A stretch of 61,917 bases of DNA, from contig CATLBH010000008.1 in NCBI GenBank assembly GCA_949878745.1, forward strand, positions 1-61,917, given 5' to 3'. The notes under the pieces were generated by a model. The model was not told the DNA's origin and made no database searches. It was given only the letters and a program-made list of their open reading frames with translations. Of this stretch, positions 3,141 through 61,751 are shown in pieces (position 1 is the stretch's first letter; each line of letters starts with the position of its first letter). The translations under genes were made by a program, and so were the position numbers. Origin of the DNA: an uncultured Ruminiclostridium sp. Lineage in GTDB: Bacteria > Bacillota > Clostridia > Oscillospirales > Ruminococcaceae.

Positions 3141-3252
3141 TACTAATCTTTAATCATATTGTAGACGAAGTCGGAAATATGATTAAAGATTACTCCCGAA
3201 ACACAAATCTTTGGTCAACATTTTTTGTCTATAATCTGACCAAAGATTAGTA
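3141..3252 (+). repeat. family A element, copy A1
   Basis: Subfamily a. Two hairpins (stems AATCTTTAATCATATT and CTAATCTTTGGTCA with their complements) are joined by the linker CTCCCGAAACAC. The ends TACTAATC and GATTAGTA are inverted. TTA is duplicated at 3138-3140 and 3253-3255. Nearly identical to copy A2 at 37906. Confidence 0.85.
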
Positions 3253-3289
3253 TTAAAACATCTTAGATGAAATCGTATTAAAGTTTCCG

Positions 3290-3560
3290 TCCGCCCTTTT
3301 CAAAGGGCGGAGGGCGAAATACTTTACGCCGTAGCTGCAAAAAGGGGTTTTGCAAAGCAAAATTTCGGACGGAGTCCGAAAAACGTTTGCGTCAGAGACC
3401 GGCGCGAAGCGACAGTTTCATAACGCCTCCGAAGAAGGTGAATTGAAAAACAGTTCGGCGGACTGTTTTTCAATAGGGGAAGCCCTTCAAGAGAGGGCTT
3501 CCCCTGTTACGACAACCTCAAGTTTCCCTTCGGGGTTCCCCCCGAACGGTACACACCCCA
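3290..3560. repeat. family G hairpin cluster
   Basis: A run of strong inverted repeats: GTCCGCCC/GGGCGGA near 3290-3313, TTGAAAAACAGT/ACTGTTTTTCAA near 3443-3474, and GGGGAAGCCC/GGGCTTCCCC at 3477-3507, then GTTACGACAA and CCCTTCGGGG. The last two parts recur at 14762-14830. It lies downstream of the prolyl-tRNA deacylase gene and probably ends its transcript. Confidence 0.65.
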
Positions 3561-3581
3561 AACTCGTCAAAAACCCACAAA

Positions 3582-4076
3582 TTATAACTCCGCGTAAACA
3601 ATCTCATTCCCATGCTCACGAACCACCCTAACCACATCCTCAAAATCAATAAAAATCGTAGCGGTATTTTCATTAGGATGCAGCGCGAAGCACTTTTCCC
3701 CCTTCAGCTCCTCGTCAAACACCACCGTAACCGCCCTTTCCTCATCATTAAGCACACTAAAAGAAGAAACCGACCCCGGCTTTACCTTAAGATACCTGTC
3801 AAGCCGCTCCTCCGAACCGAAAGACAGTCTTGTGGAACCGATTTTTTCCGCCAGCCGCTTCAAATCCGTTTTCTTGTCCACGGTGGTCACCGCGAGATAA
3901 TGCTTGTCCCCTTTGGCGTTTCGCAAAAACAGGTTTTTGCTAACCTTATAACCGTCCCATATATGAAGCCCGCTTTTTTCCTTATCCTCCGCCGAAAAAA
4001 CGGCAATATGCTCCTCCTTCCGATAGCTTATCCCCTTTTTTTCAAGAGTTTCGTATACAATAGGCTGTCCCAACAT
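3582..4076 (-). CDS. prolyl-tRNA deacylase (YbaK/ProX editing domain)
   Basis: A free-standing trans-editing protein of 164 residues that hydrolyses mischarged tRNA-Pro, typically Ala-tRNA-Pro. The YbaK/ProX fold is seen in VSKNLFLRNAKGDKHYL, with the conserved lysine after VS, followed by RLSFGSEERL and GSVSSFSVLND. I chose the ATG at 4076 because it overlaps the nadC stop as TAATG and has GGAG 9 nt upstream. The ATG at 4091, which lies inside nadC, has no ribosome site. The overlap indicates translation coupled to nadC; there is no evident metabolic link between the two. Confidence 0.85.
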   Translation of the reverse strand: MLGQPIVYETLEKKGISYRKEEHIAVFSAEDKEKSGLHIWDGYKVSKNLFLRNAKGDKHYLAVTTVDKKTDLKRLAEKIGSTRLSFGSEERLDRYLKVKPGSVSSFSVLNDEERAVTVVFDEELKGEKCFALHPNENTATIFIDFEDVVRVVREHGNEIVYAEL

Positions 4077-4918
4077 TACTTTTTTCTCCATTTCATTGAA
4101 ATGTCAAAGGCCTTGACGCTGTGAGTCAATGCTCCGAGGCTTATTATATCTACCCCTGTTTCGGCAATCTCCTTTATGTTGTCAAGAGTAACGTTTCCGC
4201 TGGCTTCAAGCTTAGCCTTCCCACCCGTCAGCTTAACCGCCTCTTTCATTTCCTCACAGCTCATATTGTCCAACATAATAACGTCGGTCCCACAGTCCAA
4301 AGCCTCTTTAACCTCTTCCAAGGTGCGCGCCTCCACCTCTATTTTCAGCATATGCCCCGCCTTTTCACGCAGTGCCTTTACCGCCGCGGTAATCCCGCCG
4401 TAAGCGTCGATATGGTTGTCTTTGAGCATTGCAGCGTCGGTGAGATTATAGCGGTGGTTTTTCCCGCCGCCCACGGCTACCGAATATTTTTGAAGCGGGC
4501 GAAGTCCCGGAAGGGTCTTTCTGGTGTCGGCCACCGAAGCGTTTGTACCCTCCGCCAGATCGGCGCATTTTCTCGTATAAGTGGCAATTCCGCTCATATG
4601 CTGAATAAGATTAAGCGAAGTCCGCTCCGCCTTGAGCATCGCGGCGGTATTGCCCTTAAATTCCGCGATAACGTCTCCTTTTTTCACTTTATCCCCGTCC
4701 CTGAACAAAAATTTTATTTCAATATTTTCGTCAAGAAGCTTAAACACCCGCGCCGCAACCTCAACCCCCGCCAAAACTCCGCTGTCTTTAGCCATAAAAT
4801 AAGCCTCCGAAACGTCGTTTTCGGGAATAAGGAGGTCAGTGGTGCTGTCGATGTAGTTTATGTCTTCGGTTAGGGCGGTTTTTATTATGTCGTCGATGTA
4901 GAATTGTTGTAGTTTCAT
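4076..4918 (-). CDS. nadC: nicotinate-nucleotide pyrophosphorylase (carboxylating)
   Basis: Quinolinate phosphoribosyltransferase: quinolinate plus PRPP gives nicotinate mononucleotide, the third step of NAD de novo synthesis. The 280-residue length is typical. Visible family blocks are TSLNLIQHMSGIATYTRK, ADTRKTLPGLR, KYSVAVGGGKNHR, LKDNHI, KIEVEARTLEE, MLDNMS, LEASGNV and ISLGALTHS, with the expected catalytic lysines, arginines and glutamates. An AAAGGA site precedes the ATG. nadB lies upstream on the same strand, separated by about 840 bp of repeats, so the two may not share one transcript. Confidence 0.96.
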   Translation of the reverse strand: MKLQQFYIDDIIKTALTEDINYIDSTTDLLIPENDVSEAYFMAKDSGVLAGVEVAARVFKLLDENIEIKFLFRDGDKVKKGDVIAEFKGNTAAMLKAERTSLNLIQHMSGIATYTRKCADLAEGTNASVADTRKTLPGLRPLQKYSVAVGGGKNHRYNLTDAAMLKDNHIDAYGGITAAVKALREKAGHMLKIEVEARTLEEVKEALDCGTDVIMLDNMSCEEMKEAVKLTGGKAKLEASGNVTLDNIKEIAETGVDIISLGALTHSVKAFDISMKWRKK

Positions 4919-4975
4919 TTTTTTATTATGTCCTTTCTTTTGATTATGATTAAAAGGGGGAGGGCTTGCCGCAAG

Positions 4976-5075
4976 GGGTAAAAAGGTTTTTATCGAAGGT
5001 CGATTTCTTTTTACAATGCTTTATTTTTTACACTGCCGTGAAGGGGCGCTCCCGCAGGGGGAAAACGATAAGTTT
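4976..5075 (+). repeat. partial copy of family E
   Basis: The stretch ATCGAAGGTCGATT, ACAATGCTTTATT, CACTGCCGTG, GGGCGCTCCCGC repeats the first 100 bp of the adjacent full copy at 5095. It looks like a partial tandem duplication. Confidence 0.6.
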
Positions 5076-5094
5076 TGCTAACCGCATGGTGTAA

Positions 5095-5401
5095 AATTCT
5101 TATCGAAAGTTGATTACTTTCTACAATGCTTTATTTTTGCACTGGCCGTGCAGGGCCGCTCCCGCGGGGGGCTTAAGGTGACACCAAAGGGGTGGAGATG
5201 GTGAACAGGCTTCGCAATGTTGGTTTTTGATATAATGTTGCTTGTTTTTGTCGAAATATACCGATTCGGCGTAGCCTGTTCCCCACTCTCCCCCCCTTAG
5301 GTTTCACCTTAAGAATCCCTTCCTTACCCCCCTCTGGGTGTTTTATCGTCAATATAGGTTTTTCTCTCATAAAATGCTGTTCCGACGATTGCTATTATCG
5401 T
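5095..5401 (+). repeat. family E repeat, copy 1
   Basis: About 300 bp, closely matching 28100-28410. Nested inverted repeats include GCGGGGGGCTTAAGGTG against CACCTTAAG, and GAACAGGCTTCGC against GCGTAGCCTGTTC. An open frame on the minus strand inside it is a by-product of the repeat, not a gene. Confidence 0.75.
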
Positions 5402-5554
5402 ATGTTATATTTTGCTCCTGGGTTAGTTATTTTATATAACTGCTCCCAATAAACCTTTTTCGTCCGATTTTCTTATTTACCTATCGGTAATTGCCAATAA
5501 TTGCGTACCCGTAAAACACTTTGCTTTTGTCTTGCGTATCAAATTCCGCAACCT

Positions 5555-5718
5555 GCTCCATCAGTAAAAACTGCTCCTACGCCAAAACTACCCCACCGCA
5601 GGGGGCGCAGCCCTGATTTTCCTAACGGAAAATCAGTCGCCGCTCCGCATTCGCTCCGCGTCGGCTCACTCCGCCTCCGGCTCCGTTCGCGGCTGCGCCG
5701 CCGCCAATCTCCCCCCAA
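5555..5718 (-). repeat. family D repeat, copy 1
   Basis: About 165 bp, GC-rich, with the core GGCGCAGCCGCGAACGG, GTGAGCCGACGCGGAGCG, the palindrome GATTTTCC/GGAAAATC, and GTAGGAGCAG. Two more copies lie at 32252 and 34650. The motif GGGTACGCAAT occurs 25-50 bp beyond the same end in all three. Confidence 0.75.
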
Positions 5719-5756
5719 AAAAATGTTTCCCATTAAAAACTCTTATCTCCCTCTCT

Positions 5757-7241
5757 CTACTCCTCCCCATTACCTTTACCTCTTTCCACAACCTCCCCCA
5801 AAATAATACAAGCCACCGTAGCCACCGATTTAGCCTCAATATAATCCGGAGTCAAAGCGTACCCCCCTTTATCCAGCATCTCCTTAATCTCCTCAACCCT
5901 TTTAAGCCCCCTCTCCGCCTCATCATAATTAGGCACCACAAAATAAGCCTTCTGCATAATATGTCTAACCTCCGTGCGCAATCCCGAAGGCAGCTCCTCC
6001 CCTTCCGGCGAACGGAAAGTCCCCTCTACCCGAGAGTAATCCTTGGCGGCGGGAGTGGTAAGATTTATCTGTTCCGCAATCAGCCTACTGAACACAAGCG
6101 CCTCCAAAAGGGAGTTGGAAGCGAGGCGGTTAACTCCGTGAACTCCCGTATGGGCGCATTCTCCCGCCGCGTACAGGCCTCTTACCGAGGTGGCTCCGTT
6201 CCCGTCAACGTCTATTCCACCCATAAGATAGTGCTGACAGGGATAAATGGGTATAGGCTCCTTAGTCATATCATACCCCTTTTCAAGCACCCTCTTGTAT
6301 ATCATCGGGAAGCGGTTCCTCACAAATTCGGGATCCTTATAAGAAATATCAAGCCAGAATTCGTCGCTCCCCACCGCCTCCTGTTCCTTCATCATACACT
6401 TAGACACCACGTCGCGGGGAGCAAGCTCCTTCCGCTCCGGTTCATACTTGTGCATAAACCTTTCCTTGTTGGCGTTGAGAAGATACGCCCCTTCCCCCCT
6501 TACCGCCTCGGAAACAAGGAAGCATTCGCGGTTTTTCCTGTCCGCAAAAGCGGTGGGATGAAACTGAACATAGCTTAAATGCTTTATTTTAGCGCCGAGA
6601 TTATAGGCGAACTGTATCCCGTCCCCCGTGGCTATGGCGGAATTTGTTGTAAAATCGTAAACTCTTCCTATTCCCCCTGTTGCCAAAACCACCGCTTTTG
6701 TGGTATAATAGTGGTGCTTGCCCGATTTGAAGATATCGAGATAAAAATCCTCCCCGTTTTTTTCAAGCCCCAAAAGGTGAGAATTTTCCATTAAGTTGAG
6801 GTTTTTAAGCTTTATGACCTGATCTATGAGGGCGGTCACTATCTCGAAACCCGTGCTGTCCTTATGATGGGCGATACGGTGGCGGGAGTGTCCCCCCTCC
6901 AGCGTGAGATTCACCGAGCCGTCCTCGTTGCGGTCAAAATCCACGCCGTACTTTATAAGGTTTTTAACGTCGGTGGGTCCCTGCTCCACAAGAATTTTAA
7001 GATTGTTCATATCGTTCTTGTAGCCGCCCGCAATAAGGGTATCCTTAATGTGAAGGGAATAGTCGTCGTCCTTTGGGTTCATTACCGCGGCCACCCCGCC
7101 CTGAGCCAGAGCCGAGTTGCAAAGAGTGATCTCCTTTTTGGAAATCATAAGGATTTTCAACGCGCGGTTAAGGTTAAGGGCACAGTAAAGACCCGACACC
7201 CCCGACCCTACTATGATTACGTCAAATTTTTCAAATTGCAT
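5757..7241 (-). CDS. nadB: L-aspartate oxidase
   Basis: FAD enzyme that oxidises L-aspartate to iminoaspartate, the first NAD de novo step. The N-terminus holds the dinucleotide-binding VGSGVSGLYCALNL, followed by SALAQGGVAAV, GGHSRHRIAHHKDSTG, the FAD-linked SEAVRGEGAYLL and QHYLMGGIDVD, and an Asn-Ser pair late in the domain; about 494 residues is normal. I place the start at the ATG at 7241, 9 nt after AAAGGAG; the ATG at 7250 abuts the ribosome site and cannot use it. The partner nadA (quinolinate synthase) is not in the window. Confidence 0.96.
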   Translation of the reverse strand: MQFEKFDVIIVGSGVSGLYCALNLNRALKILMISKKEITLCNSALAQGGVAAVMNPKDDDYSLHIKDTLIAGGYKNDMNNLKILVEQGPTDVKNLIKYGVDFDRNEDGSVNLTLEGGHSRHRIAHHKDSTGFEIVTALIDQVIKLKNLNLMENSHLLGLEKNGEDFYLDIFKSGKHHYYTTKAVVLATGGIGRVYDFTTNSAIATGDGIQFAYNLGAKIKHLSYVQFHPTAFADRKNRECFLVSEAVRGEGAYLLNANKERFMHKYEPERKELAPRDVVSKCMMKEQEAVGSDEFWLDISYKDPEFVRNRFPMIYKRVLEKGYDMTKEPIPIYPCQHYLMGGIDVDGNGATSVRGLYAAGECAHTGVHGVNRLASNSLLEALVFSRLIAEQINLTTPAAKDYSRVEGTFRSPEGEELPSGLRTEVRHIMQKAYFVVPNYDEAERGLKRVEEIKEMLDKGGYALTPDYIEAKSVATVACIILGEVVERGKGNGEE

Positions 7242-7411
7242 CGCAAGCATCTCCTTTTGCCTTTATAAAGGCTAAAAATCATTATAAGGGAATATTTCAA
7301 GATTTTCCCTTGAAAGGACTGAGTAAAATGGTAATTATCAAGTTAAGAGCCAAAAACTGAACAAAATTTTTATCCAAAGGAGGAGAGAAAATGATCATTA
7401 AATAATTTTAA

Positions 7412-7502
7412 TACTAATCCCTTTAAAACTGTGGGATTAGTGTTTCGGGAGCAACCCTTTATAAATTGTGGATTTTATCCATAGTTTAAAAAAGGGTTGT
7501 TA
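7412..7502 (-). repeat. family A element, copy A5
   Basis: Subfamily d in reverse orientation. Hairpins TAATCCC/GGGATTA and AACCCTTT/AAAGGGTT are joined by the linker complement TGTTTCGGGAGC. TAA is duplicated at 7409-7411 and 7503-7505. It fills most of the gap between the divergent nadB and hflX genes. Confidence 0.85.
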
Positions 7503-7575
7503 TAAGCGTATCGGAAAAAATATTTCGGATATGCCGGACAAACAAGATAACAACCGCATTCCTTTGGAGGTATAT

Positions 7576-8820
7576 ATGACCGAAAATATTAAAGAAGAAA
7601 TTATAACAAAAGCGATTCTTGCCGCCGCCGACTGCGGCGAATACGACTGCGAATCCTCTATGAAGGAGCTGGAGGAGCTTGCCAAAACCGCCGGAGCCGA
7701 AGTCGTGGCTCAGGTTATCCAAAAGCGCTCCGCTCCCGAACCCGCCACCGTTATCGGCGAGGGTAAAATAGAGGAGCTTCGAGATCTGGTGAACAAGCTT
7801 GAAGCCGACCTTGTAATATTCGACTGTGAACTGACGGCCAGCAGGATAAGAAATATCGAAGATACGGTAAATGTAAGGGTAATCGACCGCACCATGCTTA
7901 TTTTGGATATTTTCGCGGGGCGCGCCGTTACAAACGAGGGTAAATTACAGGTAGAGCTGGCTCAGCTGAAATACCGACTTCCCCGTCTGGCGGGAATAGG
8001 CGCGTCAATGTCGAGGCTCGGCGCGGGAATAGGAACGAGAGGCCCCGGCGAAACAAAGCTTGAAACCGACCGCCGCCATATAAGGAGCAGAATAACCAAG
8101 CTTGAGGAAAACCTGAAGGAGCTTGAAAAAAGAAGAAGCTTTTCCCGTTCCCGAAGGAAGAAAGACAATGTTCTGACCGCCGCCATAGTGGGTTACACCA
8201 ACGCGGGAAAATCCACCCTTTTGAACAATCTCACGGGAGCAAACGTTCTGGCCGAGGATAAGCTTTTCGCCACCCTTGACTTAACCTCCCGCGGAATAGA
8301 GCTGCCCGACGGACGAACCGTATTGGTAACGGACACGGTGGGACTTATCCGAAGACTTCCCCACAATCTTGTGGAAGCTTTCAAGTCCACCCTCGAAGAA
8401 GCTTCAAGCGCCGACATTATCCTCCACGTACTGGACATAAGCGACAGCGAAGCGGCGGAAAAAGCGGAAACCACAAGTATGCTTCTGACCGAGCTGGGCT
8501 GCGGCGGTATTCCGGTGGTCAACGTGCTGAACAAGTGCGACCTTATGGAAAACAACATTCCCGAAAGCAAGGATACCATAAAAATCTGCGCAAAAACCGG
8601 AGAAGGCTTTGACAGACTGCTTAAAGCGATCTCCGAAAACCTCCCCGAAAGCTCGAAAAGAATAACCCTCCTTCTCCCCTACGACAAAGGCGGCCTTACC
8701 GCCAAAATAAGGGAAAAGGGAAAGGTGTTTTCCGAGGAATACACCGAAAACGGGATAAAAGTCGACGCGCTGGCGGATATTACGGTGCTTAAAGAACTGG
8801 AGCCTTATAAAGCGGATTAA
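7576..8820 (+). CDS. hflX: ribosome-associated GTPase HflX
   Basis: HflX binds the 50S subunit and splits stalled ribosomes. The N-terminal domain carries VIGEGK and the linker motif GIGTRGPGETKLETDRR (151-167), followed by a coiled coil. The G domain has Walker A GYTNAGKST (206-214), G3 DTVG and G4 NKCD. I start at the ATG at 7576 because TTGGAGG lies 5 nt upstream; an in-frame ATG at 7468 lies inside repeat A5 and would add 36 unrelated residues. The product is 414 residues. Confidence 0.96.
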   Translation: MTENIKEEIITKAILAAADCGEYDCESSMKELEELAKTAGAEVVAQVIQKRSAPEPATVIGEGKIEELRDLVNKLEADLVIFDCELTASRIRNIEDTVNVRVIDRTMLILDIFAGRAVTNEGKLQVELAQLKYRLPRLAGIGASMSRLGAGIGTRGPGETKLETDRRHIRSRITKLEENLKELEKRRSFSRSRRKKDNVLTAAIVGYTNAGKSTLLNNLTGANVLAEDKLFATLDLTSRGIELPDGRTVLVTDTVGLIRRLPHNLVEAFKSTLEEASSADIILHVLDISDSEAAEKAETTSMLLTELGCGGIPVVNVLNKCDLMENNIPESKDTIKICAKTGEGFDRLLKAISENLPESSKRITLLLPYDKGGLTAKIREKGKVFSEEYTENGIKVDALADITVLKELEPYKAD

Positions 8821-8886
8821 CACAATCGGGTGTTATTCAGACCGACCTGATCTAAAACACTTAATACTTTACAATAAACCTTTGGT

Positions 8887-8920
8887 TTGCCGCAGGAAGA
8901 AAATTTCTTCCTGCGGCAAT
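8887..8920 (+). terminator. hairpin after hflX
   Basis: A 14-bp near-perfect stem, GCCGCAGGAAGAAA paired with TTTCTTCCTGCGGC. There is no long T-run after it; it may act with the next hairpin. Confidence 0.6.
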
Positions 8921-8940
8921 TCATTTGGAATATTCATTAC

Positions 8941-8975
8941 AAAAAAGACTGTAAATAAAATCACAGCCTTTTTTA
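8941..8975 (-). terminator. terminator of galK
   Basis: On the minus strand GGCTGT pairs with ACAGTC and is followed by TTTTTT, just past the galK stop. It sits between two convergent genes. Confidence 0.65.
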
Positions 8976-8985
8976 CCCCCAAAAT

Positions 8986-10263: not shown

Positions 10264-10360
10264 ATTGACTTTTTTCCTTTCTTATCTTTCTTATAATCTT
10301 AATAATTACTTTCGGTAAAATCAAGCTTTATTTGAACATAATGACAATAAAATGCAATTT

Positions 10361-11512: not shown

Positions 11513-11679
11513 CTGCGACCTTCATTAAGTTTTTTTGCCGTTATAGGCTATCCCAATCTCCGCTTAAGCCGTATTATTTATATTATATACTTTTTGACAA
11601 TTTTTTTCAATACCCGAGGAAATATTACGGAAAATTTTTCCTGTTAAAAATACTCCGGGTAAATCGAAAGCAATATTAT

Positions 11680-11840
11680 GGAACCGCTGATTAAATCGGT
11701 GTGTGCATATTGCGCGGCAGATTTTTCGTCAGATTATACAAATTCGACGCAGGCGGGCTAGCGCCCGTCAAGGAGAAGTTGTGCAATCTGACGGAAAATA
11801 TGCAAGCAAGATGTGCGCATCCGATTTAATCAGTGGTTCC
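11680..11840 (+). repeat. family C element, copy C1 (161 bp)
   Basis: Inverted ends GGAACCGCTGATTAAATCGG and CCGATTTAATCAGTGGTTCC flank an internal palindrome GCAGGCGGGC/GCCCGTC and a longer stem GTCAGATT/AATCTGAC. TTAT is duplicated at 11676-11679 and 11841-11844. The right-hand copy supplies the stop codon of the GGDEF/EAL gene. Almost identical to C2 at 38195. Nothing recognisable lies in 11513-11675. Confidence 0.9.
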
Positions 11841-31828: not shown

Positions 31829-32057
31829 GAACCTGTCCACATAGGAACTGGCACGCGTCTTTTCGGCAGATTTTGCCGATGACTGCGTATCGTCATTTGC
31901 TTTGCTGTCGGCCGTCCTTGCGCCGACTTTGGGCAAATGACCGAACACCTCGTGTGTTAAAATTTCTTGACTTGCGACAGCAAGCCGGCGAAATTTTGCC
32001 TTGTCCTCGACAAAATCTGCTCGAAAATCCACGCACCGTTCCTATGTGGACAGGTTC
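31829..32057 (-). repeat. family B element, copy B1
   Basis: Ends GAACCTGTCCACATAGGAAC and GTTCCTATGTGGACAGGTTC form a 20-bp inverted repeat. CAA precedes and TAA follows (imperfect 3-bp duplication). Inside is the stem TTGCCCAAAGTCGGCGC. It has no family A insert at TGACCGAACACCTCG, the point where A9 and A13 sit in B4 and B5. Confidence 0.8.
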
Positions 32058-32103
32058 TAAGCTTTGGTCAGATTATAGACAAAAAATGTTGACCAAAGAT
32101 TAG
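32058..32103 (-). repeat. half of a family A element
   Basis: Single hairpin CTTTGGTCAGATTATAGACA ... TGACCAAAGATTAG, the second stem of subfamily a. Its end is split by the 24-bp element C3. Confidence 0.7.
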
Positions 32104-32127
32104 GGAACCGATTTAATCAGTGGTTCC
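32104..32127. repeat. family C deletion derivative C3 (24 bp)
   Basis: Only the two ends remain: GGAACCGATTTAATCA joined to GTGGTTCC. TTAG is duplicated at 32100-32103 and 32128-32131, inside the ATTAGTATT terminus of a family A half-element. Confidence 0.8.
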
Positions 32128-33911: not shown

Positions 33912-34022
33912 TACTAATTTCATCTTAAAAAGGTTCTAACCTTTTTAAGATGAAATTACGCCCGAAGCACTATTTTCAAATTATCCACTAAATTATCCAA
34001 TCCTTTTAATTTGAAAATAGTG
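33912..34022 (+). repeat. family A element, copy A6
   Basis: Subfamily b. Stems CTAATTTCATCTTAAAAAGG and CTATTTTCAAATTA with complements, linker CGCCCGAAGCAC. TTA is duplicated at 33909-33911 and 34023-34025. About 95% the same as A8 at 34961. Confidence 0.85.
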
Positions 34023-34089
34023 TTAGAGATATATTTAATTTTCAATGAGCGACCTCAGAGGAGTTCGGCGTTTCCGACGAAAGCGTAAT

Positions 34090-34176
34090 ACTAATTGTTA
34101 ATCAATCTGTTGACAAACAGATTGATTAACAATCACACCCAAAGCACTATTAGCAAATCAGTATGATTAATAGTAT
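34090..34176 (+). repeat. family A element, copy A7
   Basis: Subfamily c. First stem TTGTTAATCAATCTG/CAGATTGATTAACAA, linker ACACCCAAAGCAC, short second hairpin CTATTA...TAATAG. TAA is duplicated at 34087-34089 and 34177-34179. Confidence 0.85.
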
Positions 34177-34960: not shown

Positions 34961-35071
34961 TACTAATTTCATCTTAAAAAGGTTCTAACCTTTTTAAGAT
35001 GAAATTACACCCAAAGGACTATTTTCAAATTATCCACTAAATTTTGCAATCTTTTTAATTTGAAAATAGTA
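34961..35071 (+). repeat. family A element, copy A8
   Basis: Subfamily b, like A6, with linker ACACCCAAAGGAC. TAA is duplicated at 34958-34960 and 35072-35074. It ends 12 bp before the promoter of the next gene. Confidence 0.85.
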
Positions 35072-36584: not shown

Positions 36585-36635
36585 TACTAATCTTTGGTCA
36601 ACATTTTTTGTCTATAATCTGACCAAAGATTAGTA
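36585..36635. repeat. family A single-hairpin element, copy A3
   Basis: Only the second hairpin of subfamily a (CTAATCTTTGGTCA ... TGACCAAAGATTAG). The left TAA duplication (36582-36584) is the mnmA stop codon; the right one is 36636-36638. Confidence 0.8.
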
Positions 36636-36747: not shown

Positions 36748-36839
36748 TACCAATCCCTTTTTAAGCTGACGAAATACACACAGTTGAAAAAGAGATTGCA
36801 CCCAAAGCACTAATCCAACAGTTTTAAAAGGAATTAGTA
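36748..36839 (+). repeat. family A element, copy A4
   Basis: Subfamily d. Stems CCAATCCC.../GAGATTG and CTAATCC.../GGAATTAG, linker CACCCAAAGCAC. TAA is duplicated at 36745-36747 and 36840-36842. Confidence 0.85.
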
Positions 36840-37905: not shown

Positions 37906-38017
37906 TACTAATCTTTAATCGTATTGTAGACGAAGTCGGAAATATGATTAAAGATTACACCCGAAACACTAATCTTTGGTCAACATTTTTTGTCTGTAAT
38001 CTGACCAAAGATTAGTA
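37906..38017 (+). repeat. family A element, copy A2
   Basis: Subfamily a, differing from A1 (3141) at only a few positions. TTA is duplicated at 37903-37905 and 38018-38020. Just before it (37836-37900) is a decayed part of a subfamily c second hairpin. Confidence 0.85.
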
Positions 38018-38031: not shown

Positions 38032-38191
38032 GAAACTGTTCCAATAGGAATGGTGTGCGGATTTTCGAGGATATTTTGTTGATGACAAGGCAAAAATCCG
38101 CAGGCGGGCTGTCGCCCGTCAAGGATTTTTAACGCAGTCAGCAGCAAAATATGCCGAAAAGACGTGCGCCAATTCCTATTGGAACAGTTTC
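38032..38191 (+). repeat. family B element, copy B3 (160 bp)
   Basis: Ends GAAACTGTTCCAATAGGAAT and ATTCCTATTGGAACAGTTTC are a perfect 20-bp inverted repeat. CAA precedes and TAA follows. The interior holds GCGGATTTTCGAGG and the CAGGCGGGC/GCCCGTC stem also found in family C. Its right edge abuts C2. Confidence 0.85.
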
Positions 38192-38194: not shown

Positions 38195-38355
38195 GGAACC
38201 GCTGATTAAATCGGTGTGTGTATATTGCGCGGCAGATTTTTCGTCAGATTGTACAAATTCGACGCAGGCGGGCTAGCGCCCGTCAAGGAGAAGTTGTGCA
38301 ATCTGACGGAAAATATGCAAGCAAGATGCGCGCATCCGATTTAATCAGTGGTTCC
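38195..38355 (+). repeat. family C element, copy C2 (161 bp)
   Basis: Same length as C1 and nearly identical. CTAA is duplicated at 38191-38194 and 38356-38359. Confidence 0.9.
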
Positions 38356-38973: not shown

Positions 38974-39306
38974 GAAACTGTTCCAATAGTAATGGTGTGC
39001 GGATTTTCGAGCATATTTTGTTGATGACAAGGCAAAAATCCGCAGGCGGGCAGCTTACGCGATAAGCCCCTCAAGGATTTTTAACACACGATGTGTTATA
39101 CCAATCCCTTTTTAAACTGTGTGTATTTCGTCAGTTAAAAAGGGATTGCTCCCGAAACACTAATCCAACAGTTTAAAGAGGGATTAGTATTAGTCATTTG
39201 CCCAAAGTCGGCGCATCCTTGCGCCGACTTTGGGCAAATGACAAAACGCAAGCCGGCGGTAAAATATGCCGAAAAGACGTGCGCCTATTCCTATTGGAAC
39301 AGTTTC
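38974..39306 (+). repeat. family B element, copy B4, with A9 inside
   Basis: Ends GAAACTGTTCCAATAG and CTATTGGAACAGTTTC. TTA is duplicated at 38971-38973 and 39307-39309. Family A copy A9 is nested within it, followed by a 50-bp perfect-looking palindrome (39193-39242). Confidence 0.85.
39099..39189 (+). repeat. family A element, copy A9
   Basis: Subfamily d with linker CTCCCGAAACAC. TTA is duplicated at 39096-39098 and 39190-39192. It is inserted in B4 at the same point as A13 in B5. Confidence 0.85.
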
Positions 39307-43430: not shown

Positions 43431-43616
43431 TACCAATCCCTTTTTATACTGATTTTTAATCAATCTGTTGACAAACAGATTGATTAAAAATCACACCCAA
43501 AGCACTATTTGAAAATCATTCCGAGTTTTATTTTGTCTATAGTATGATTTGCAAATAGTATTAAACCGACGTAATACCCACAGTTTAAAAGGGATTGCCC
43601 CCGAAACACTAATCCT
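43431..43616 (+). repeat. outer family A element, copy A10a, split by A10b
   Basis: Subfamily d first stem (CCAATCCCTTTTTA ... TTTAAAAGGGATTG) and linker CCCCCGAAACAC, then truncated after CTAATCC. TTA precedes it at 43428-43430. A10b is inserted in its loop. Confidence 0.75.
43447..43560 (+). repeat. family A element, copy A10b, nested in A10a
   Basis: Subfamily c. Stems GATTTTTAATCAATCTG and CTATTTGAAAATCAT with complements, linker ACACCCAAAGCAC. TTA is duplicated at 43444-43446 and 43561-43563. Confidence 0.85.
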
Positions 43617-45392: not shown

Positions 45393-45573
45393 GGAACCGC
45401 TGATTAATACTAATCCTCTTTAAACTGTTGGATTAGTGTTTCGGGGGCAATCCCTTTTTAAATTGTGGGTATTACGTCAGTTTAAAAAGGGATTGGTAAA
45501 ACACAATCGTCACGTTTAAAGCAGCGTACTCACGCGGCTGATTGTGTTATGCGGCGCTTTAATCGGAGGTTCC
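45393..45573. repeat. family C element, copy C4, with A11 inside
   Basis: Left end GGAACCGCTGATTAA and right end GGAGGTTCC. The interior has diverged from C1/C2 and contains A11. Flanks CAAA and CTAA are close but not identical. Confidence 0.65.
45408..45490 (-). repeat. family A element, copy A11
   Basis: Subfamily d reversed, linker complement TGTTTCGGGGGC. TAA precedes it at 45405-45407; the right side reads AAA, an imperfect duplication. Confidence 0.75.
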
Positions 45574-45612: not shown

Positions 45613-45725
45613 TACTGATTTTTAATCAATATGTTGACAAACAAATTGATTAAAAATCAAACCCAAAGCACTTTTGCAAATCATTCAAAGTTTTATTTTA
45701 TCTATAGTATGATTTGCAAATAGTA
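45613..45725 (+). repeat. family A element, copy A12
   Basis: Subfamily c, very like A10b, with linker AAACCCAAAGCAC. TTA is duplicated at 45610-45612 and 45726-45728; the latter is the stop codon of the pseudogene on the minus strand. Confidence 0.85.
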
Positions 45726-50690: not shown

Positions 50691-50694
50691 GACT

Positions 50695-55201: not shown

Positions 55202-55338
55202 AATAAATCAGTTCCTTTCTTTGTTCGCGTTTTCGAAATTTCGCTTTATATATTTTTTAGGTTTTCGAAATATGTCTTTGGGTAAGCTGTTTCCTTGCTT
55301 TTGTTTTACACGTTTCTTTTTTTGATTTTTCGGTGAAT

Positions 55339-55932
55339 TTACGCCACCACCGCCACCATGGCGAATCTCAGAATTTTGTCGCCCAGCTTATAGCCTTTTT
55401 GAAAGGTGGAGGCGATCATGCCGCTTTCCTGTCCTTCTTCGGCGGGAACCTGCTGCACCGCCTGATGAAGTGAGGGGTTAAACTCGCCCTCGGAGGGAAT
55501 TTGTTCCACGCCCAGCTTTCCGAGAGTTTCCATAAAGGATTGATATATCATCTCAACGCCTTTTTTGAAATTCTCGTCGGCACAGTCGGCGCTTAAGGCT
55601 CTTTCCAGATTGTCCGCCACGGCGAGGAATTCCGTCACGGTCTTGGCGGTAATCTCCGGTTCAAGCTCCACCCGCTCGCGGCTTGTGCGCTTTCGGTAAT
55701 TGTCGTATTCCGCCATATTCCGCATAAGCTGATCCTTAAGCTTTTCCGCTTCCTCGGTTTTCTTTTCAAGCTCCGCTTCGAGAGGGCTTTTTTCGGGAGC
55801 TTCGTTTACGGCGTTTTCGCCGCTTTTTTCCTTTTCCTCGGTTTCCTTCAAAACCTCCTCTTCTTTTACGGTATCTTTAGCGTCCAATTTGTCTTTCTCC
55901 TTCTCTTTTTTCTTTTTGTCGGCCTTACTCAA
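55339..55932 (-). CDS. grpE: nucleotide exchange factor GrpE
   Basis: 197 residues. A Lys/Glu-rich N-terminal tail and long coiled coil (1-90), then DQLMRNMAEYDNYRKRTSRE, the GrpE core FLAVADNLERAL, and the beta domain ending in GYKLGDKILRFAMVAV. It releases ADP from DnaK. Its start overlaps the hrcA stop by 8 nt. Confidence 0.96.
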   Translation of the reverse strand: MSKADKKKKEKEKDKLDAKDTVKEEEVLKETEEKEKSGENAVNEAPEKSPLEAELEKKTEEAEKLKDQLMRNMAEYDNYRKRTSRERVELEPEITAKTVTEFLAVADNLERALSADCADENFKKGVEMIYQSFMETLGKLGVEQIPSEGEFNPSLHQAVQQVPAEEGQESGMIASTFQKGYKLGDKILRFAMVAVVA

Positions 55933-56998
55933 GATTATCCGCCTCCTTTTCCTCGGGGAGGAATCCGGCGAGCGCCGATTCGTCCTCGTCTTCGCTAAGG
56001 CTAAGCAAATTTGTTATCTTATCGGAAAAATACTCCAGATAGGGTATTATCTTCTTGTAATCGATTCTGGCGGGGCCTATCACCCCGAAGCTTCCCGCCT
56101 TGCGGCCGTCCTTTTCAAAGGAAGAGGTTATCACACTGGAATTGGAGACCACAAAGGTTTGGTTTTCCTCTCCGAACATTATGTTTATTCCCGAAAAGGC
56201 GCCGGAAAGTATTTCGCTGAAGCTTTCCCTGTTTCTCAGAATGGAGGCGATCTCGTGGCTTTCAAGCTGTTCGCAGGCCACAAGATTCGCTTCGCCGTTG
56301 ACGCTCACCTGTTCCTTGGCCATTTCCGCGGACATTTCCGCTATTCCCTTCATAAGGGGGGAGAGCATCATCATATAGCTGCCCAAAGCGGCGGAAAGGC
56401 TTTCCATAAGCTCGTCGGAGAGGCTGTCTATATTAAGGCCGGTAAGGTTTTCGTCGGCGAATTTGGTGAAAAAATTCACCTGTTCGCCCGTGAGGTCAAA
56501 CTGTAGACGGCAAACGCGGTTTTTTATGCTTCCCCCCGAAGTAACCAGAAGCAGCACGTACATTCTCCGCCCCGTGGGGATAACCTCCACCTTGGTGATC
56601 ACCGAAAATCTTCCCGTTTCGTTGGCGGTGACTATGGCGCATTTCGTTATCTCGGACAGAGCCTTTCCCGCTTCCTCGATAAGGCGGTCGTCGGTTTCGG
56701 CGTCTATTTCCTCGAATATTTCGTCTATGCGGAGTCTTTCGTCCTCGGAAAGCTTATGCTCGGGCATAAAATTTTCTATATAAAAACGGTAGCCGCTGAA
56801 GGTCGGGACTCTTCCCGCGCTGGTATGGGGGTGTTCGAGATAGCCCAGCTGCTCCAACATTGCCATCTCGTTTCGAATAGTGGCGGAGGATACTTTTAAG
56901 GTAAGCTTTTCCTGAACGGTTTTTGAGCCCACCGGCTCTCCGGTTCTTATATATTCGTCCACCACCGTTTCCAATATTTTTAACGATCTTTTTTCCAT
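55925..56998 (-). CDS. hrcA: heat-inducible transcription repressor HrcA
   Basis: 357 residues. An N-terminal winged helix (LKILETVVDEYIRTGEPVGS, VSSATIRNEMAMLEQLGYLEHPHTSAGRVP), then the GAF-like dimerisation and inserted domains ending IGPARIDYKKIIPYLEYFS. HrcA binds the CIRCE box just upstream (57104-57130) and represses its own operon; GroEL normally assists it, though groESL is not in the window. Confidence 0.97.
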   Translation of the reverse strand: MEKRSLKILETVVDEYIRTGEPVGSKTVQEKLTLKVSSATIRNEMAMLEQLGYLEHPHTSAGRVPTFSGYRFYIENFMPEHKLSEDERLRIDEIFEEIDAETDDRLIEEAGKALSEITKCAIVTANETGRFSVITKVEVIPTGRRMYVLLLVTSGGSIKNRVCRLQFDLTGEQVNFFTKFADENLTGLNIDSLSDELMESLSAALGSYMMMLSPLMKGIAEMSAEMAKEQVSVNGEANLVACEQLESHEIASILRNRESFSEILSGAFSGINIMFGEENQTFVVSNSSVITSSFEKDGRKAGSFGVIGPARIDYKKIIPYLEYFSDKITNLLSLSEDEDESALAGFLPEEKEADNLE

Positions 56999-57103
56999 TT
57001 GTTACAGACCATTCCTTGTAATATGGGAAGCGTTTGCTTAACGCAAGGGGCAAGGGCGCAAACCGACTTTTTATCGGTTTCTGGCACTCTTGCGGTTGGT
57101 GTG

Positions 57104-57130
57104 TTAGCACTCTTGCTCTTTGAGTGCTAA
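57104..57130. promoter_or_regulatory. CIRCE operator (HrcA site)
   Basis: A perfect match to the CIRCE consensus: TTAGCACTC, 9 bp, GAGTGCTAA. It overlaps the expected transcription start of hrcA-grpE-dnaK-dnaJ. Confidence 0.97.
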
Positions 57131-57134
57131 CCAT

Positions 57135-57163
57135 AATGTATCACTTTTTCGTCGGAATGTCAA
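57135..57163 (-). promoter_or_regulatory. sigma-A promoter of the hrcA operon
   Basis: TTGACA, 17 bp, TACATT on the minus strand, 5 bp upstream of CIRCE. Confidence 0.85.
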
Positions 57164-57443
57164 GTGTTTTTTGAAAAATTTTTTAAATTTTTTTGATTTT
57201 CTTTTTTTGGATTTTGCAAATCGGCTTTGAGAAAGAGATGACGGGTTTTTTTGAATTTGTTAGTTTAAGAGGAGCGTCACAGATGGAATACTTTTTAAGA
57301 GGGGGGTTAAAAGCACAACTTTTTAAAACTTTCACTTGCATTTTCGCCGAAAATCTGCTATACTATTGTGATATGGAAATATGCGGTTAAACTGCCGCAA
57401 TTTCCCGTTTTCAAAGGAAAAAGAAAAACGCCGAGGACGTATT

Positions 57444-59375
57444 ATGGAAAAAACGGAAAAAACCACACTGCTGTCACGCATTCGCGGCAGGGCGGGAAAC
57501 AGAAGCGTGAAATTTCTTCTGTATCTCGTCTTTTTCGCCGTGCATATGCTTATTTCCCTTTCCTCCTACCTGCCCTCTATTGATCCCAACGAATTCTCCG
57601 CCGCCGCTATGACCAATATGTTTCTCGGAGGGAATTGGACGGCGGCTATGAGCCGAAGCGATTATTACTACGGATTTTTACAGTCCCTTGTGTATATTCC
57701 CGCCATGTCGGTAACTAAAGACCCGTTTGTGCAGTATCGGGTTATGCTGATAATCAACGGGGCTTTAATGAGCCTTGTGCCCGTGACGGTTTATACCCTC
57801 TGTCTTAAGCTGGGGGTGAAAAAGGTTTGGCAGGCGGTTTTTGCCGCCGTATGCTGCGGCGGGTGGATGACCTGTCTGGTGCACAGCAAGTTTATATGGA
57901 ACGAAACGGCCGCAATACTGCTCCCGTTTATTATGCTTTATCTGCTCGTTTCGGCGGAGACCGCCGACAAAAAAGGAAAGAGGAGCTTTTTTTCGATATT
58001 TCTCGCCTTTTCCTGCGGCCTGGCCTATTGCGCCCATCAAAGGCTTATTTCCGCGATTCTGGCGGTAACGGCGGCTTCTCTTTTGTCGCGATTTGTACTT
58101 AAAAGAAAAAGTCTTAATTTCACCGCGTTTTTTTCCGCTCTGGCCGTATTTATGACGGCGGCGGTGTTCGGGAATTACCTTGTGCAAAGGGTGCTTTGGG
58201 GAGCGGACGACCCCGCCTTGCTCCAAAACACCGCCGAAAACTTTCTGGCAAGGCTTCCCGAGCTGTTTAAGGACGGGGGCGCGGCAAGATTTTTTACCGC
58301 TTTGATTTCCCAGTGCTTTTACTTCGTCTGCGCTTCTTGGGGGCTGGGGGCGCTGGGGGTTTCGCTTTTTACTGTGGTAATTCTTTCGCTGGTGAAAAGT
58401 CGGCGGGAAAAGGGCAAACCGATATTCGGGGGAGAAAGAGCGGTGTTTCTGTTCTTCGCCGCCTCAGCGACATTTTTCACTTTAATCGTGGGGGCATTTT
58501 ACCGATTCGGGGCGGAAAGCTTTGAGACAAGCCAGAGTACGCTAATATTCGGACGTTATCTTGACGGGGTGATACCCTTTACGGTGATGTTCGTGTTTGT
58601 TTATATCTTCACGGAGGAGCTTAAGCTTACGGAGATATTGGGGGGGATAATCGTTTCGGGGGCGGCGTACCTGATGTTTTTCTTTACGGGAAGGACGGCC
58701 GCGCTTAACGCGGTTTCCGCCACCATTATTCCGATGTTGGGACTTTATCCGGTGATGTTCGGGGAAAACTCGGGAAGCTTGGTTACCTCGACGGGCTTTA
58801 CCGCCGCGGTAAGCTGTTCCATGTGCGTGATGACACTGCTTATAGTTATCGTTTCCTGCTCCAAAAAATACAAGAAAATCAATATATCCGTTCTTTTCAC
58901 GATAATCTCCGTTTATTCGGCGCTGTACGGAACGTTCGGATATCTGCCCCTTTCGGCGGCGGAGAGCAGGGAAAAAAACGCGGAATACGTTGAGCTTTCC
59001 TCCTACATTTACAACACCGCCGAGTCCCCTTCGGTAACGGCCTATTCCTGCGGAAGAGGGTGCGTTATGATGCTTCAGTATCTGAATCAGAACATAAAGG
59101 TGTATCCCGCCGAGTCGCCCGGGGAAATTCGCGAGGACTCTTATGTAATAGTGCCCAACGACGTTATGATACGGTTTGACGGACAAACGCGGGTGGTATT
59201 CGCCCAACTTGCCGAAACCGACAATTATAAGGTGTACGCTTACGGCGAGAGAGCCAAAGCCTACGCACAATCACAGTCGGGGACAGAGGAAACGGTCGGA
59301 GACCGTCAAAGTGAGACTGCCCCCAAAACAGAAACGGAAGAAACCGAAAAAACATCGGCGGCTTCAAGGGAGTAA
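57444..59375 (+). CDS. large polytopic membrane protein, possible GT-C glycosyltransferase
   Basis: 643 residues with about 11-13 membrane helices (first at 18-37) and a soluble C-terminal part (about 520-643) ending in a Thr/Glu-rich tail. After the first helix an acidic loop, SIDPNEFSAAAMTNMF, resembles the first extracellular loop of GT-C glycosyltransferases, which use lipid-linked sugars. I cannot name a family with confidence; an O-antigen-ligase or polymer-type role is also possible. The start at 57444 has GAGG about 9 nt upstream; the ATG at 57381 does not. A KtrB-like gene follows 51 bp later. Confidence 0.65.
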   Translation: MEKTEKTTLLSRIRGRAGNRSVKFLLYLVFFAVHMLISLSSYLPSIDPNEFSAAAMTNMFLGGNWTAAMSRSDYYYGFLQSLVYIPAMSVTKDPFVQYRVMLIINGALMSLVPVTVYTLCLKLGVKKVWQAVFAAVCCGGWMTCLVHSKFIWNETAAILLPFIMLYLLVSAETADKKGKRSFFSIFLAFSCGLAYCAHQRLISAILAVTAASLLSRFVLKRKSLNFTAFFSALAVFMTAAVFGNYLVQRVLWGADDPALLQNTAENFLARLPELFKDGGAARFFTALISQCFYFVCASWGLGALGVSLFTVVILSLVKSRREKGKPIFGGERAVFLFFAASATFFTLIVGAFYRFGAESFETSQSTLIFGRYLDGVIPFTVMFVFVYIFTEELKLTEILGGIIVSGAAYLMFFFTGRTAALNAVSATIIPMLGLYPVMFGENSGSLVTSTGFTAAVSCSMCVMTLLIVIVSCSKKYKKINISVLFTIISVYSALYGTFGYLPLSAAESREKNAEYVELSSYIYNTAESPSVTAYSCGRGCVMMLQYLNQNIKVYPAESPGEIREDSYVIVPNDVMIRFDGQTRVVFAQLAETDNYKVYAYGERAKAYAQSQSGTEETVGDRQSETAPKTETEETEKTSAASRE

Positions 59376-59426
59376 CCGAAAGCGTCCGAAATATCATATG
59401 TATTTTGTCAAAAGGAATGATGTAGT

Positions 59427-60776
59427 ATGCCCGTTATAGCAAAAAAAGCCAAACAGCCCAACCCCGCAAGAACGCTTACACTTAGTCTTTTAGCCGTAAT
59501 TATAGTGGGTACGGTGCTTTTGTGGCTTCCTATTTCCTCGAAAAGCGGGGAGTGGACCGATTTTATAGACTGTTTCTTTACCGCCGCCTCCGCCACCACA
59601 ACCACGGGCATCACGGTGGTGGAGACCTTCAGTCACTGGAACCTTTTCGGACAGTGGGTACTGCTGCTGATGACGCAGATCGGTGGTCTCGGTCTTGTAA
59701 TTATCCTCACCTTTTTCAACTTCGCGCTGGGGCGGAAAATGGGGCTTATGAAAGCCAGCGCCGTGGCGGGCGAGGTCAGCGTAAGCGGCTTCGTGGGGGC
59801 GAAAAGGCTTTTTATAAGAATAGGAACCTACACCTTTATTCTGGAATTCGTCGGGGCGGTGATTATGTGCTTTACCCTGGTTCCCGAATACGGGGCTTAC
59901 GGGGTGTTTATGTCGTTTTTCACCGCGATTTCCGCGTTCTGTAACGGAGGACTCGACCTTTTCGGAATAGGCACGGGGCTTTCGGGATATTTCGACAAGC
60001 CGCAGGTGCATATAGTTATAGCGGCGCTGGTGTTCTTGGGGGGAATCGGCTTTGTGGTATGGGACAACGTGGTAAGCTGGTTTAAGACAAAAAGGCTGTC
60101 CATTTATACGAAAATAGTGCTTATTTACAGCGGGGTGTTCTTCCTTATAGGCTTTCTGGCTTACTTTTTGGTTATAATCCTTCACGGGGACGCTTACGAG
60201 GATATGAATATCGGGGACAAACTGTTTTGTTCCGCGTTCACAAGCGTTTCCGCCCGCTCGGCGGGGTTTAACATAAGGGATATCGCGCTGGCCAACGACT
60301 TTTCGAAAATAGTCACCACAATACTTATGTTTATCGGCTCGGCGCCCGCTTCTACGGGCGGCGGTATAAGAGTTACCACGCTGGCGATATTGGCGGCCAC
60401 CGTTGTCGCGGTGTTTAAGGGGTACGACGATGTAAGGCTGTACGGGCACAAGGTGGGGAAGAGGCTTGTGTATAAGGCGGTGTCTGTGCTGGTGCTGTCG
60501 GTGGTGTTTGTGCTTATTTGTTTTACCACAATATATCTGCTGAATCCGGAGATTGCGGAGGTGGATATACTTTATGAGATTGTTTCGGCGGTTACCACCA
60601 CGGGGTTTTCTACGGGGATTTCTTCGGCGGTGGATCCGGTATCTAAGCTTATGCTTTGTTTGGCGATGTTGGTAGGAAGAGTGGGGACTGTTTCGCTTCT
60701 GCTGTCGTTTAAGGGGGATAAGGGGGACAGCGGGAAGAATAAGATTTTGCCCGACTGCGAGCTTTTAATAGGATAA
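59427..60776 (+). CDS. TrkH/KtrB-family potassium transporter
   Basis: 449 residues, eight or more membrane helices in four pore repeats. The four selectivity-filter segments are visible: ASATTTTGITV, SAFCNGGLD, SARSAGFN and AVTTTGFST, each with the key glycine. GSAPASTGGGIRVTT is a strongly conserved block before the third pore. It imports K+ (often with Na+) and normally needs a cytoplasmic KtrA/TrkA ring, which is not encoded next to it. AAAGGA precedes the ATG. Confidence 0.93.
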   Translation: MPVIAKKAKQPNPARTLTLSLLAVIIVGTVLLWLPISSKSGEWTDFIDCFFTAASATTTTGITVVETFSHWNLFGQWVLLLMTQIGGLGLVIILTFFNFALGRKMGLMKASAVAGEVSVSGFVGAKRLFIRIGTYTFILEFVGAVIMCFTLVPEYGAYGVFMSFFTAISAFCNGGLDLFGIGTGLSGYFDKPQVHIVIAALVFLGGIGFVVWDNVVSWFKTKRLSIYTKIVLIYSGVFFLIGFLAYFLVIILHGDAYEDMNIGDKLFCSAFTSVSARSAGFNIRDIALANDFSKIVTTILMFIGSAPASTGGGIRVTTLAILAATVVAVFKGYDDVRLYGHKVGKRLVYKAVSVLVLSVVFVLICFTTIYLLNPEIAEVDILYEIVSAVTTTGFSTGISSAVDPVSKLMLCLAMLVGRVGTVSLLLSFKGDKGDSGKNKILPDCELLIG

Positions 60777-60782
60777 GAAAAG

Positions 60783-60962
60783 AAGAAAAAAATCGGCGAA
60801 GCCGCAATGTATTTTTCGCTTCCTTTTTGCACTGCAAAAAGGAAGTGGGGTTCGGGGCAAAGCCCCGACGTAGCAACTTAAGAGCATCAACCATCTATAA
60901 ATTTGTCGCGTAACCACCGCACAGAAGCGGGCGAAGCCGCCGCTTCGGCCGTAAAGAAAAAG
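60783..60962 (+). repeat. family F repeat, copy 3
   Basis: GGCGAAGCCGC, CTTCCTTTTTGCACTGCAAA with AAAGGAAG, CGGGGC/GCCCCG, TTGTCGCGTAACCACCGC and GCGGGCGAAGCCGCCGCTTC. Same module order as copy 1; it lies right after the KtrB-like stop. Confidence 0.75.
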
Positions 60963-60999
60963 AAAAAACCACAATAACCCGCAAAAAGGAACGCAACCA

Positions 61000-61434
61000 A
61001 TGAATCTGACCGTAAAACATTTCAGCGAGCTTACCGTTTCGGAGCTGTACGACATATTAAAGCTAAGAGTATCGGTATTTGTACTGGAGCAAAGCTGCCT
61101 TTATCAGGAGCTGGACGATATGGACAAAAACGCCTTTCACCTGTGGTACTCGGACAAGGATGGGGTAGCGGCTTACCTTCGGGTGCTGCCCGACAGCGTG
61201 TGGGGAGAGGTTTCCATAGGTAGGGTTATATCAGTAAGAAGGCGAATGGGGCTTGGGAGTATGATACTTGCGGAGGGGATAAAAACGGCTAAGGAAAGGT
61301 ACGGGGCGAAGAGGATTGTTATAGGGGCGCAGAGCTACGCTCAGGGATTTTATGAAAAGGCGGGGTTTATCAGGGATTCAGAGGAGTATGTGGAGGACGG
61401 GATAAGGCATGTTAGAATGACGTTGGAGATTTAA
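61000..61434 (+). CDS. ElaA-like GNAT acetyltransferase
   Basis: 144 residues. N-terminal LYDILKLRVSVFVLEQSCLYQELDDMD is the ElaA signature (LRxxVFVVEQxCxYxExDxxD); the acetyl-CoA binding turn is RRRMGLGSMIL; EKAGFIRDSEEYVEDGIRHVRM ends the domain. The substrate of ElaA proteins is unknown. AAAAAGGA precedes the ATG. Its stop TAA is the left target duplication of the family B copy that follows. Confidence 0.88.
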   Translation: MNLTVKHFSELTVSELYDILKLRVSVFVLEQSCLYQELDDMDKNAFHLWYSDKDGVAAYLRVLPDSVWGEVSIGRVISVRRRMGLGSMILAEGIKTAKERYGAKRIVIGAQSYAQGFYEKAGFIRDSEEYVEDGIRHVRMTLEI

Positions 61435-61751
61435 GAAACTGTTCCAATTGGAATAGGCGCACGTCTATTCGGCATATTTTGCCGCTGACTTTCGTTTTGT
61501 CATTTGCTTTGTTGTCGGCGCATCCTTGCGCCGACTTTGGGCAAATGACTAATACTAACCCAACAGTTTTAAAAGGGATTAGTATTAAACTGTGGGTAAT
61601 TACGTCAGTTTAAAAAGGGACTGGTATAACACATCGTGTGTTAAAAATCCTTGACGGGCTTATCGCGTCAGCTGCCCGCCTGCGGGTTTTTGCCTTGTCA
61701 TCAATAAAATATGCTCGAAAATCCGCAAACCATTCTTATTGGAACATTTTC
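61435..61751 (-). repeat. family B element, copy B5, with A13 inside
   Basis: Ends GAAACTGTTCCAATTGGAAT and CTTATTGGAACATTTTC. TAA is duplicated at 61432-61434 (the elaA-like stop codon) and 61752-61754. The interior is B4 reversed, including the TTGCGCCGACTTTGGGCAAA stem. The last 160 bp of the window beyond it show nothing recognisable. Confidence 0.85.
61553..61626 (-). repeat. family A element, copy A13
   Basis: Subfamily d reversed, shortened, with the linker lost and the two hairpins rearranged. TAA is duplicated at 61550-61552 and 61627-61629. Same site in the family B host as A9. Confidence 0.75.

Follow-up and report, generated by a model that had tools for sequence, protein, structure and literature searches.

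What kind of element is a short repeat that is built of two hairpins, keeps its ends and its central linker, and changes its stems from one group of copies to the next? This question is raised by a 61,917-nucleotide stretch of DNA from an uncultured Ruminiclostridium sp. (contig CATLBH010000008.1 of assembly GCA_949878745.1; hereafter the window), in which an initial annotation, made from the sequence alone, recognized at least 13 copies of such a repeat, here called family A, at 14 positions. The window lies in contig C8 of its own genome (G000; 2.67 Mb, 108 contigs). When the starts were checked, each of the 14 positions proved to carry a family A element or a derivative of one, with a single start corrected (34089, not 34090). 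Family A is a real family of miniature inverted-repeat transposable elements (MITEs) whose layout, a double palindrome, is unusual and whose arms are linked by class. Probably, it is a narrowly distributed, non-autonomous family that is moved as DNA by a trans-acting enzyme with TNA targets.

Within the window, the 14 positions comprise 11 two-hairpin copies with a linker (some of them mutated), one interrupted copy, one linkerless copy, and one single-hairpin copy of 51 bp (Table 1). Identical TNA flanks are present at 12 of the 14 positions, the exceptions being 45408 (TAA/AAA) and 43431. The linker core, CCCRAARCACTA, occurs nine times in the window, whereas 0.03 occurrences are expected from base composition, and 156 times in the whole genome (79 + 77 on the two strands), compared with 6 (3 + 3) for the reversed control. 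When five copies were folded as single-stranded DNA, z-scores of −6.2 to −10.2 were obtained.

The flanks of the copies provide the evidence for mobility. Using the linker, the ends, and a stem score, 105 copies were extracted, 53 from the window's own genome (the window and 20 linker-rich stretches) and 52 from relatives; in choosing boundaries, a bonus was given for TNA on each side but none for equality between the sides. The 3-bp flanks are identical in 41 of the 53 own copies and in 43 of the 52 copies from relatives, which amounts to a target-site duplication. Among copies that have TNA at each end, the two flanks share their middle base in 41 of 50 own copies (20.5 expected; binomial p = 3e-9) and in 43 of 47 copies from relatives (22.4 expected; p = 2e-10). 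The duplicated target is TNA, found as TTA, TAA, and TCA, with TGA among single hairpins; thus, the 3-bp duplication described in the initial annotation stands, but its restriction to TTA and TAA does not. None of the 41 own copies whose flanks are identical lies in an open reading frame of at least 110 amino acids (80% coverage), a count qualified by the fact that a copy would itself break a reading frame.

Unoccupied sites agree with this picture. The joined flanks of 98 copies were compared with the assembled sequence set, and 30 queries gave a spanning match. Twenty-four of these were discarded as self-matches to one flank, repeats, matches of low identity, or further copies at a site in a second repeat family (family B, described below), and six were accepted. 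Each of the six comparisons of a filled with an empty site, one between genomes and five between repeated sequences, has a single TNA at the empty site. Between genomes, L084 of the relative G016 is filled and L092 of the relative G001 is empty (92% identity over 146 positions, TTA). Among repeated sequences, the pairs are L021 and L024 (97%, TCA), L013 and L027 (91%, TTA), and the window copy at 39099, which sits in family B, and L025 (89%, TTA); the remaining two are nested insertions, namely a class b copy inside a class a copy (L019) and the copy at 43447 inside a class b copy. The single target expected at empty sites from the initial annotation was therefore found, as TTA or TCA.

The anatomy of the element was derived from an alignment of 17 class representatives. 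Hairpin 1 is formed by columns 4–19 with 37–52, and hairpin 2 by columns 63–77 with 105–119; the latter is short in class b (8 pairs). Standard pairs occupy 98.6% of the 488 stem cells, and pairing falls to 43–48% when the partner is slid by one column, although the structure was written from the same sequences and is therefore favored over slid versions. Double changes were counted in 117 cells against a shuffle mean of 35.1, a number inflated by related rows, and both sides have changed in 21 of 31 pairs. The exceptions are four one-sided cells (G-U or U-G) and seven unpaired cells, three of them C-A. Accordingly, the existence of several stem sets, each self-complementary, was borne out, and so was the conservation of the ends and the linker, which hold most of the invariant or near-invariant columns. 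The ends read TACYAAT...ATTRGTA. The outer arms (columns 1–17 with 104–120) are paired in 82.1% of cells compared with 73.4% in shuffles, with 28 double-change cells against 10.2, and thus form a terminal inverted repeat. Column 8 pairs with column 113 in 17 of 17 rows (one as U-G), columns 12–13 are mostly unpaired, and positions 8–11 covary between the two outer ends. Within one copy, the two outer arms remain similar as far as base 11 or so, and some classes have mismatches at bases 4 and 6; the terminal inverted repeat thus exceeds 8 bp but is not perfect.

The initial claim that the stems are interchangeable was not supported, since they go together by class. When the 105 copies were sorted by motif, hairpins 1 and 2 belonged to the same class in 98, five were unassigned in one or both hairpins, and two apparently mixed copies (L069 and L089) turned out to be class j copies misfiled by the motif rule. 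The sole chimera, L230 (G000:C26, ~33.8 kb), lies outside this set and consists of a class b hairpin 1, the linker, and a class a hairpin 2. An earlier coarse arm test (permutation p 0.04, incomplete extraction) and greedy clusters are superseded by these analyses.

Family A has a narrow distribution. The 12-base linker core was found in 14 of 60 genomes, including the window's own, and is surrounded by hairpins in four of them: the window's own genome, G001 (5 loci of 45 places read), G016 (5 of 90), and G008 (3 of 3), the last of which is placed in the window's genus. The linker-core loci of the other ten genomes showed no hairpins around the core. Carriers by exact core make up 4 of 36 genus members, a count that diverged copies could escape. 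In an evenly drawn sample of 394 genomes from the order, from which G001, G008, and G016 were absent, a 19-base pattern was found in the window's own genome only. A scan of GTDB genomes returned at least 79 stretches, of which, by our own reading, 66 are elements or fragments and 13 are chance matches in other taxa. The 66 come from assemblies labeled Oscillospiraceae, uncultured Clostridia, Bacillota, or Bacteroides, the last label being probably wrong; class e copies are present in L078 and L117, two JAMPHV records under the title Bacteroides sp., which looks wrong. Viral contigs gave seven linker-pattern stretches, none with stems, and no match to the end pattern. Of 71 candidate places for the class e form in G016, 40 were scored, and 34 of these share an identical 112-bp sequence, which suggests recent activity. 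Separately, a class e copy stands at, or just a few bases from, an end of many G016 contigs, so that this assembly appears to be broken up by the element.

The enzyme that moves family A would most likely be a DDE transposase making 3-bp staggered cuts, with a target choice like that of IS5 or PIF-Harbinger; it would bind the palindromic ends and mobilize the element by cut-and-paste. TNA is the habitual target of an IS5 subgroup of insertion sequences (ISs). IS5-family MITEs (family B of G000) share the TNA duplication with family A, whereas the family A ends, TACYAAT, are unlike those of the DUF4096-type IS copies that were read in the same genome. G000 does have IS5-type (DUF4096/DDE_Tnp_1) genes, and two that were read closely have ends like GAACCTGTACC, near family B. 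The initial annotation had proposed looking for a transposase gene with the same ends, and none was found among the transposase-family loci scanned, the end-pattern matches listed, or ~1.14 Mb of sequence. Loci matching PF01609, PF13340, PF00665, PF13586, PF01797, and PF13359 were scanned in the four carrier genomes, and no gene lay between matching family A ends; outside this end scan were L188, L190, L192, and L193, which are the same IS copies as scanned loci, and L211 and L212. The end-pattern matches listed for G016 (100 of 160) and G000 (100 of 170) are short copies, single hairpins, and contig-end fragments only. An IS1182-type gene of G016 (DUF772 + DDE_Tnp_1_6) has no family A ends around it. 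With assemblies that are incomplete (G001 86%, G016 76%) and with some genes truncated by contig ends, the enzyme may have been missed.

Inverted-end pairs with equal TNA in this sequence resolved into short copies standing apart from each other, along with a small number of weak matches (e.g., L061, 6035–7008). At L175, the end-like sequences TAATACTAAT and TATGGTATGA lie on either side of an IS5 gene, but their flanks differ (TAA and TGA), they match little past the first bases, and the IS has its own inverted repeats inside them; this pair was rejected. In L174 and L191, a transposase-family gene has a short family A copy next to it, and L167/L189 and L177 contain end-like matches.

The near-perfect arms may be explained by replication. 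Template switching between inverted repeats has been described to homogenize the arms and to invert the spacer (PMC8604942). Family A has both, in its matched arms and in the inverted hairpin-1 loop of the copy at 39099, which is as expected from template switching or cruciform inversion; we therefore infer that template switching during replication may keep the arms of each hairpin matched. The coupling of the two hairpins would be due to a shared end-binding protein, and arm equality could reflect template switching, such a protein, or both. The conserved linker may serve as a spacer, may be left over between the two ends, or may be where a helper factor acts.

A number of observations weigh against a MITE family of this kind. 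No transposase gene flanked by a pair of family A ends was found in the ~1.14 Mb of sequence (overlaps included), and the IS5/DUF4096 copies that were read have ends that differ from TACYAAT and resemble family B, truncated IS5 genes at contig ends being impossible to judge. The conservation of the linker is not accounted for. The two flanks differ in 12 of the 53 own copies and in 9 of the 52 from relatives. Several copies share one insertion site in family B, so not all copies are independent insertions. Of 30 fetched class e loci of G016, 29 end at a contig end within 1.5 kb; one copy could thus be counted twice, and physical copies may number about half. The alignment also shows no excess over shuffles in further stem pair types (39 against 38.0), in end-to-end pairs changed on both sides (5 against 4.2), or in end-to-end pair types (15 against 13.3), and, of the 27 class b copies whose loop can be read, just one has it inverted.

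Which part of the element moves can be addressed with its single-hairpin copies. The class a end pattern occurs at 88 + 82 places in G000 (control 0), of which 100 of 170 were listed, including many unpaired ends. Forty short stretches at such ends, together with earlier stretches, contain 36 full copies, 27 lone class a hairpin-2 units of 51–52 bp, and a single lone hairpin 1 (L244); the 27:1 ratio of the lone forms is rough since the stretches were picked from the listed places. The left flanks of the 27 units are all distinct; the right end is intact in 22, and 16 of these 22 have identical flanks. A scan for lone palindromes with equal TNA returned 19 in sequence from the own genome (class b and c forms included), 2 elsewhere, and 0 in one shuffle. 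Hence, the design of two hairpins and a linker is common yet dispensable for a duplication-flanked copy, and the earlier idea that the linker and the two-hairpin junctions are what movement selects is not supported. The class a single hairpin of 51 bp is probably a sufficient mobile unit, and we prefer to see the single hairpins as the amplification of one 51-bp deletion product. The rival account holds that each arose in place by deletion between ACTAATCTTT direct repeats and that the two-hairpin form alone is mobile. The full element does contain these repeats, classes b and c also have single-hairpin derivatives, and deletion in place would leave identical flanks intact; however, an 8-bp repeat would also give hairpin 1 by itself, and the class a counts are lopsided toward hairpin 2. 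This account is possible but improbable.

If the 51-bp hairpin is truly sufficient, it would be a mobile DNA unit of very small size and would lend itself to simple assays as a substrate. More tentatively, the transposase might read each end as a double-armed palindrome, either an extruded cruciform or an inverted dimer site, and the arms and the enzyme might evolve together. One genus would then hold a radiation of orthogonal specificities with constant ends and linker, replaceable arms, and a 51-bp minimal version. Family A offers a natural data set of one mobile element in which the arm sequences were replaced several times while the ends and linker were kept. This allows one to ask how a transposase comes to recognize altered ends and what keeps palindromes close to perfect; template switching between hairpin arms should leave the pattern seen here, in which double changes are accompanied by few G-U cells.

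Another explanation is that an enzyme or the cell recognizes the hairpins, as a cruciform or a single strand, together with the linker junctions, and that the stems drift freely while they pair. Stem sequence varies widely across classes with nearly all cells still paired, and the concentration of invariant columns in the ends and linker fits as well. Yet the outer arms of hairpins 1 and 2 covary at positions 8–11 and the classes are unmixed save for one chimera, both of which point to recognition of sequence, and the linkerless single hairpins have identical flanks. Selection of structure is thus unlikely.

A role as RNA is not supported. If the element acted as a regulatory or otherwise structured RNA that is spread by transposition and selected for its fold, two stable helices with many double changes would be accounted for, but only 4 of the 488 cells are one-sided G-U. 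Departures within classes (20 G-U, 24 A-C, 24 other) show no strand preference, even though the extraction counted G-T as paired and could only raise G-U; there is no RNA-type tolerance on either strand. The linker strand agrees with flanking tandem genes in 11 cases and opposes them in 13. No Rfam family matched the window at its gathering score, and the initial annotation's alternative of a described RNA family thus found no match; between 33900 and 40000, the only hit was mir-553 (E 0.14), which matched two perfect palindromes on each of their strands. We regard this explanation as very unlikely. As a rule, Y1 enzymes make no target duplication. Single-strand transposition of the REPIN/IS200 type by a Y1 (HUH) enzyme, for which the paired hairpins, the many intergenic copies, the conserved sequence at the hairpin feet, and a Y1 gene in G000 might speak, is hardly credible given a variable 3-bp target that is duplicated at filled and single at empty sites, a GTAG/CTAC tag within 8 bases of the end in 0 of 105 copies, and a Y1 family represented by a broken match in G008 and not found in the incomplete genomes G001 and G016.

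The initial annotation knew of no named element with this design. A search of a set of PMC papers, judged by titles and the beginnings of abstracts, gave no description of family A, which agrees with this claim; however, two arms and a linker are described for CIR, and double hairpins are known from Allomyces mitochondria, so the claim is only partly right. Family A resembles bacterial MITEs such as Correia/NEMIS, RUP, and ERIC in being shorter than 200 bp, intergenic, and A+T-rich, with inverted ends starting with TA and a duplication, but differs in that each half is a palindrome of its own and the halves are joined by a fixed asymmetric linker. A review of such elements (PMC2229807) ascribes TA targets and IS630-Spn1-like ends to RUP, and of the repeat elements it attributes arms and a linker to CIR alone. 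CIR repeats of Caulobacter and Brucella are similar to family A in having two long inverted repeats that form two arms and a linker; they are listed there without terminal inverted repeats, with an unknown duplication and a GANTC motif. Family A has GANTC in 1 of 105 copies and a clear TNA duplication. The double-hairpin elements of Allomyces mitochondria, as cited in PMC2800124, share the double hairpins and a proposed mobility, but they are reported without flanking duplications and with a suggested RNA intermediate, whereas family A has duplications. REPINs, moved by RAYT (PMC3116915), are likewise paired inverted palindromes outside genes in many copies; unlike them, family A has no GTAG-type tag, has a variable 3-bp duplication, and occurs in four carrier genomes of which two showed no Y1 gene.

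Table 1. Copies of family A and members of two neighboring repeat families in the window.
Feature	Position	Strand	Flanks	Remarks
Class a two-hairpin copy	3141..3252	+	TTA/TTA	112 bp; two mutated bases in linker
Class b copy	7412..7502	-	TAA/TAA	linker on minus strand; mutated right end (GTTA)
Class a single hairpin	32055..32105	+		degenerate; joined to family C; additional to the 14 positions
Class c copy	33912..34022	+	TTA/TTA	G as last base
Class d copy	34089..34175	+	TAA/TAA	hairpin 2 shortened
Class c copy	34961..35071	+	TAA/TAA	
Single-hairpin copy	36585..36635	+	TAA/TAA	51 bp; lone hairpin 2 of class a; linkerless
Class b copy	36748..36839	+	TAA/TAA	
Class a copy	37906..38017	+	TTA/TTA	112 bp
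Class b copy	39099..39189	+	TTA/TTA	hairpin-1 loop inverted; within family B
Class b copy, left piece	43431..43446	+		interrupted by class d copy at 43447
Class d copy	43447..43560	+	TTA/TTA	nested in class b copy
Class b copy, right piece	43561..43613	+		TTA copy, remainder of hairpin 1, linker; remaining hairpin 2 missing
Class b copy	45408..45498	-	TAA/AAA	duplication not intact
Class d copy	45613..45725	+	TTA/TTA	linker mutated
Rearranged class b copy	61553..61626	.	TAA/TAA	74 bp; no linker; within family B
Family B (second, MITE-like)	38032-38191, 38974-39306, 61435-61751			ends GAAACTGTTCC...GGAACAGTTTC
Family C (third)	11680-11840, 38195-38355, 45393-45573			ends GGAACCGCTGATTAA...TTAATCAGCGGTTCC

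The two neighboring families have duplications of their own. For family B, identical 3-bp flanks were seen in 7 of the 20 end pairs found (four TAA, three TTA), and its ends resemble those of an IS5/DUF4096 copy at ~92.6 kb of G000:C4. Family C has 4-bp duplications, mostly TTAG or CTAA, which are identical in 14 of 18 pairs. Family A copies are often joined to, or hosted by, family C.

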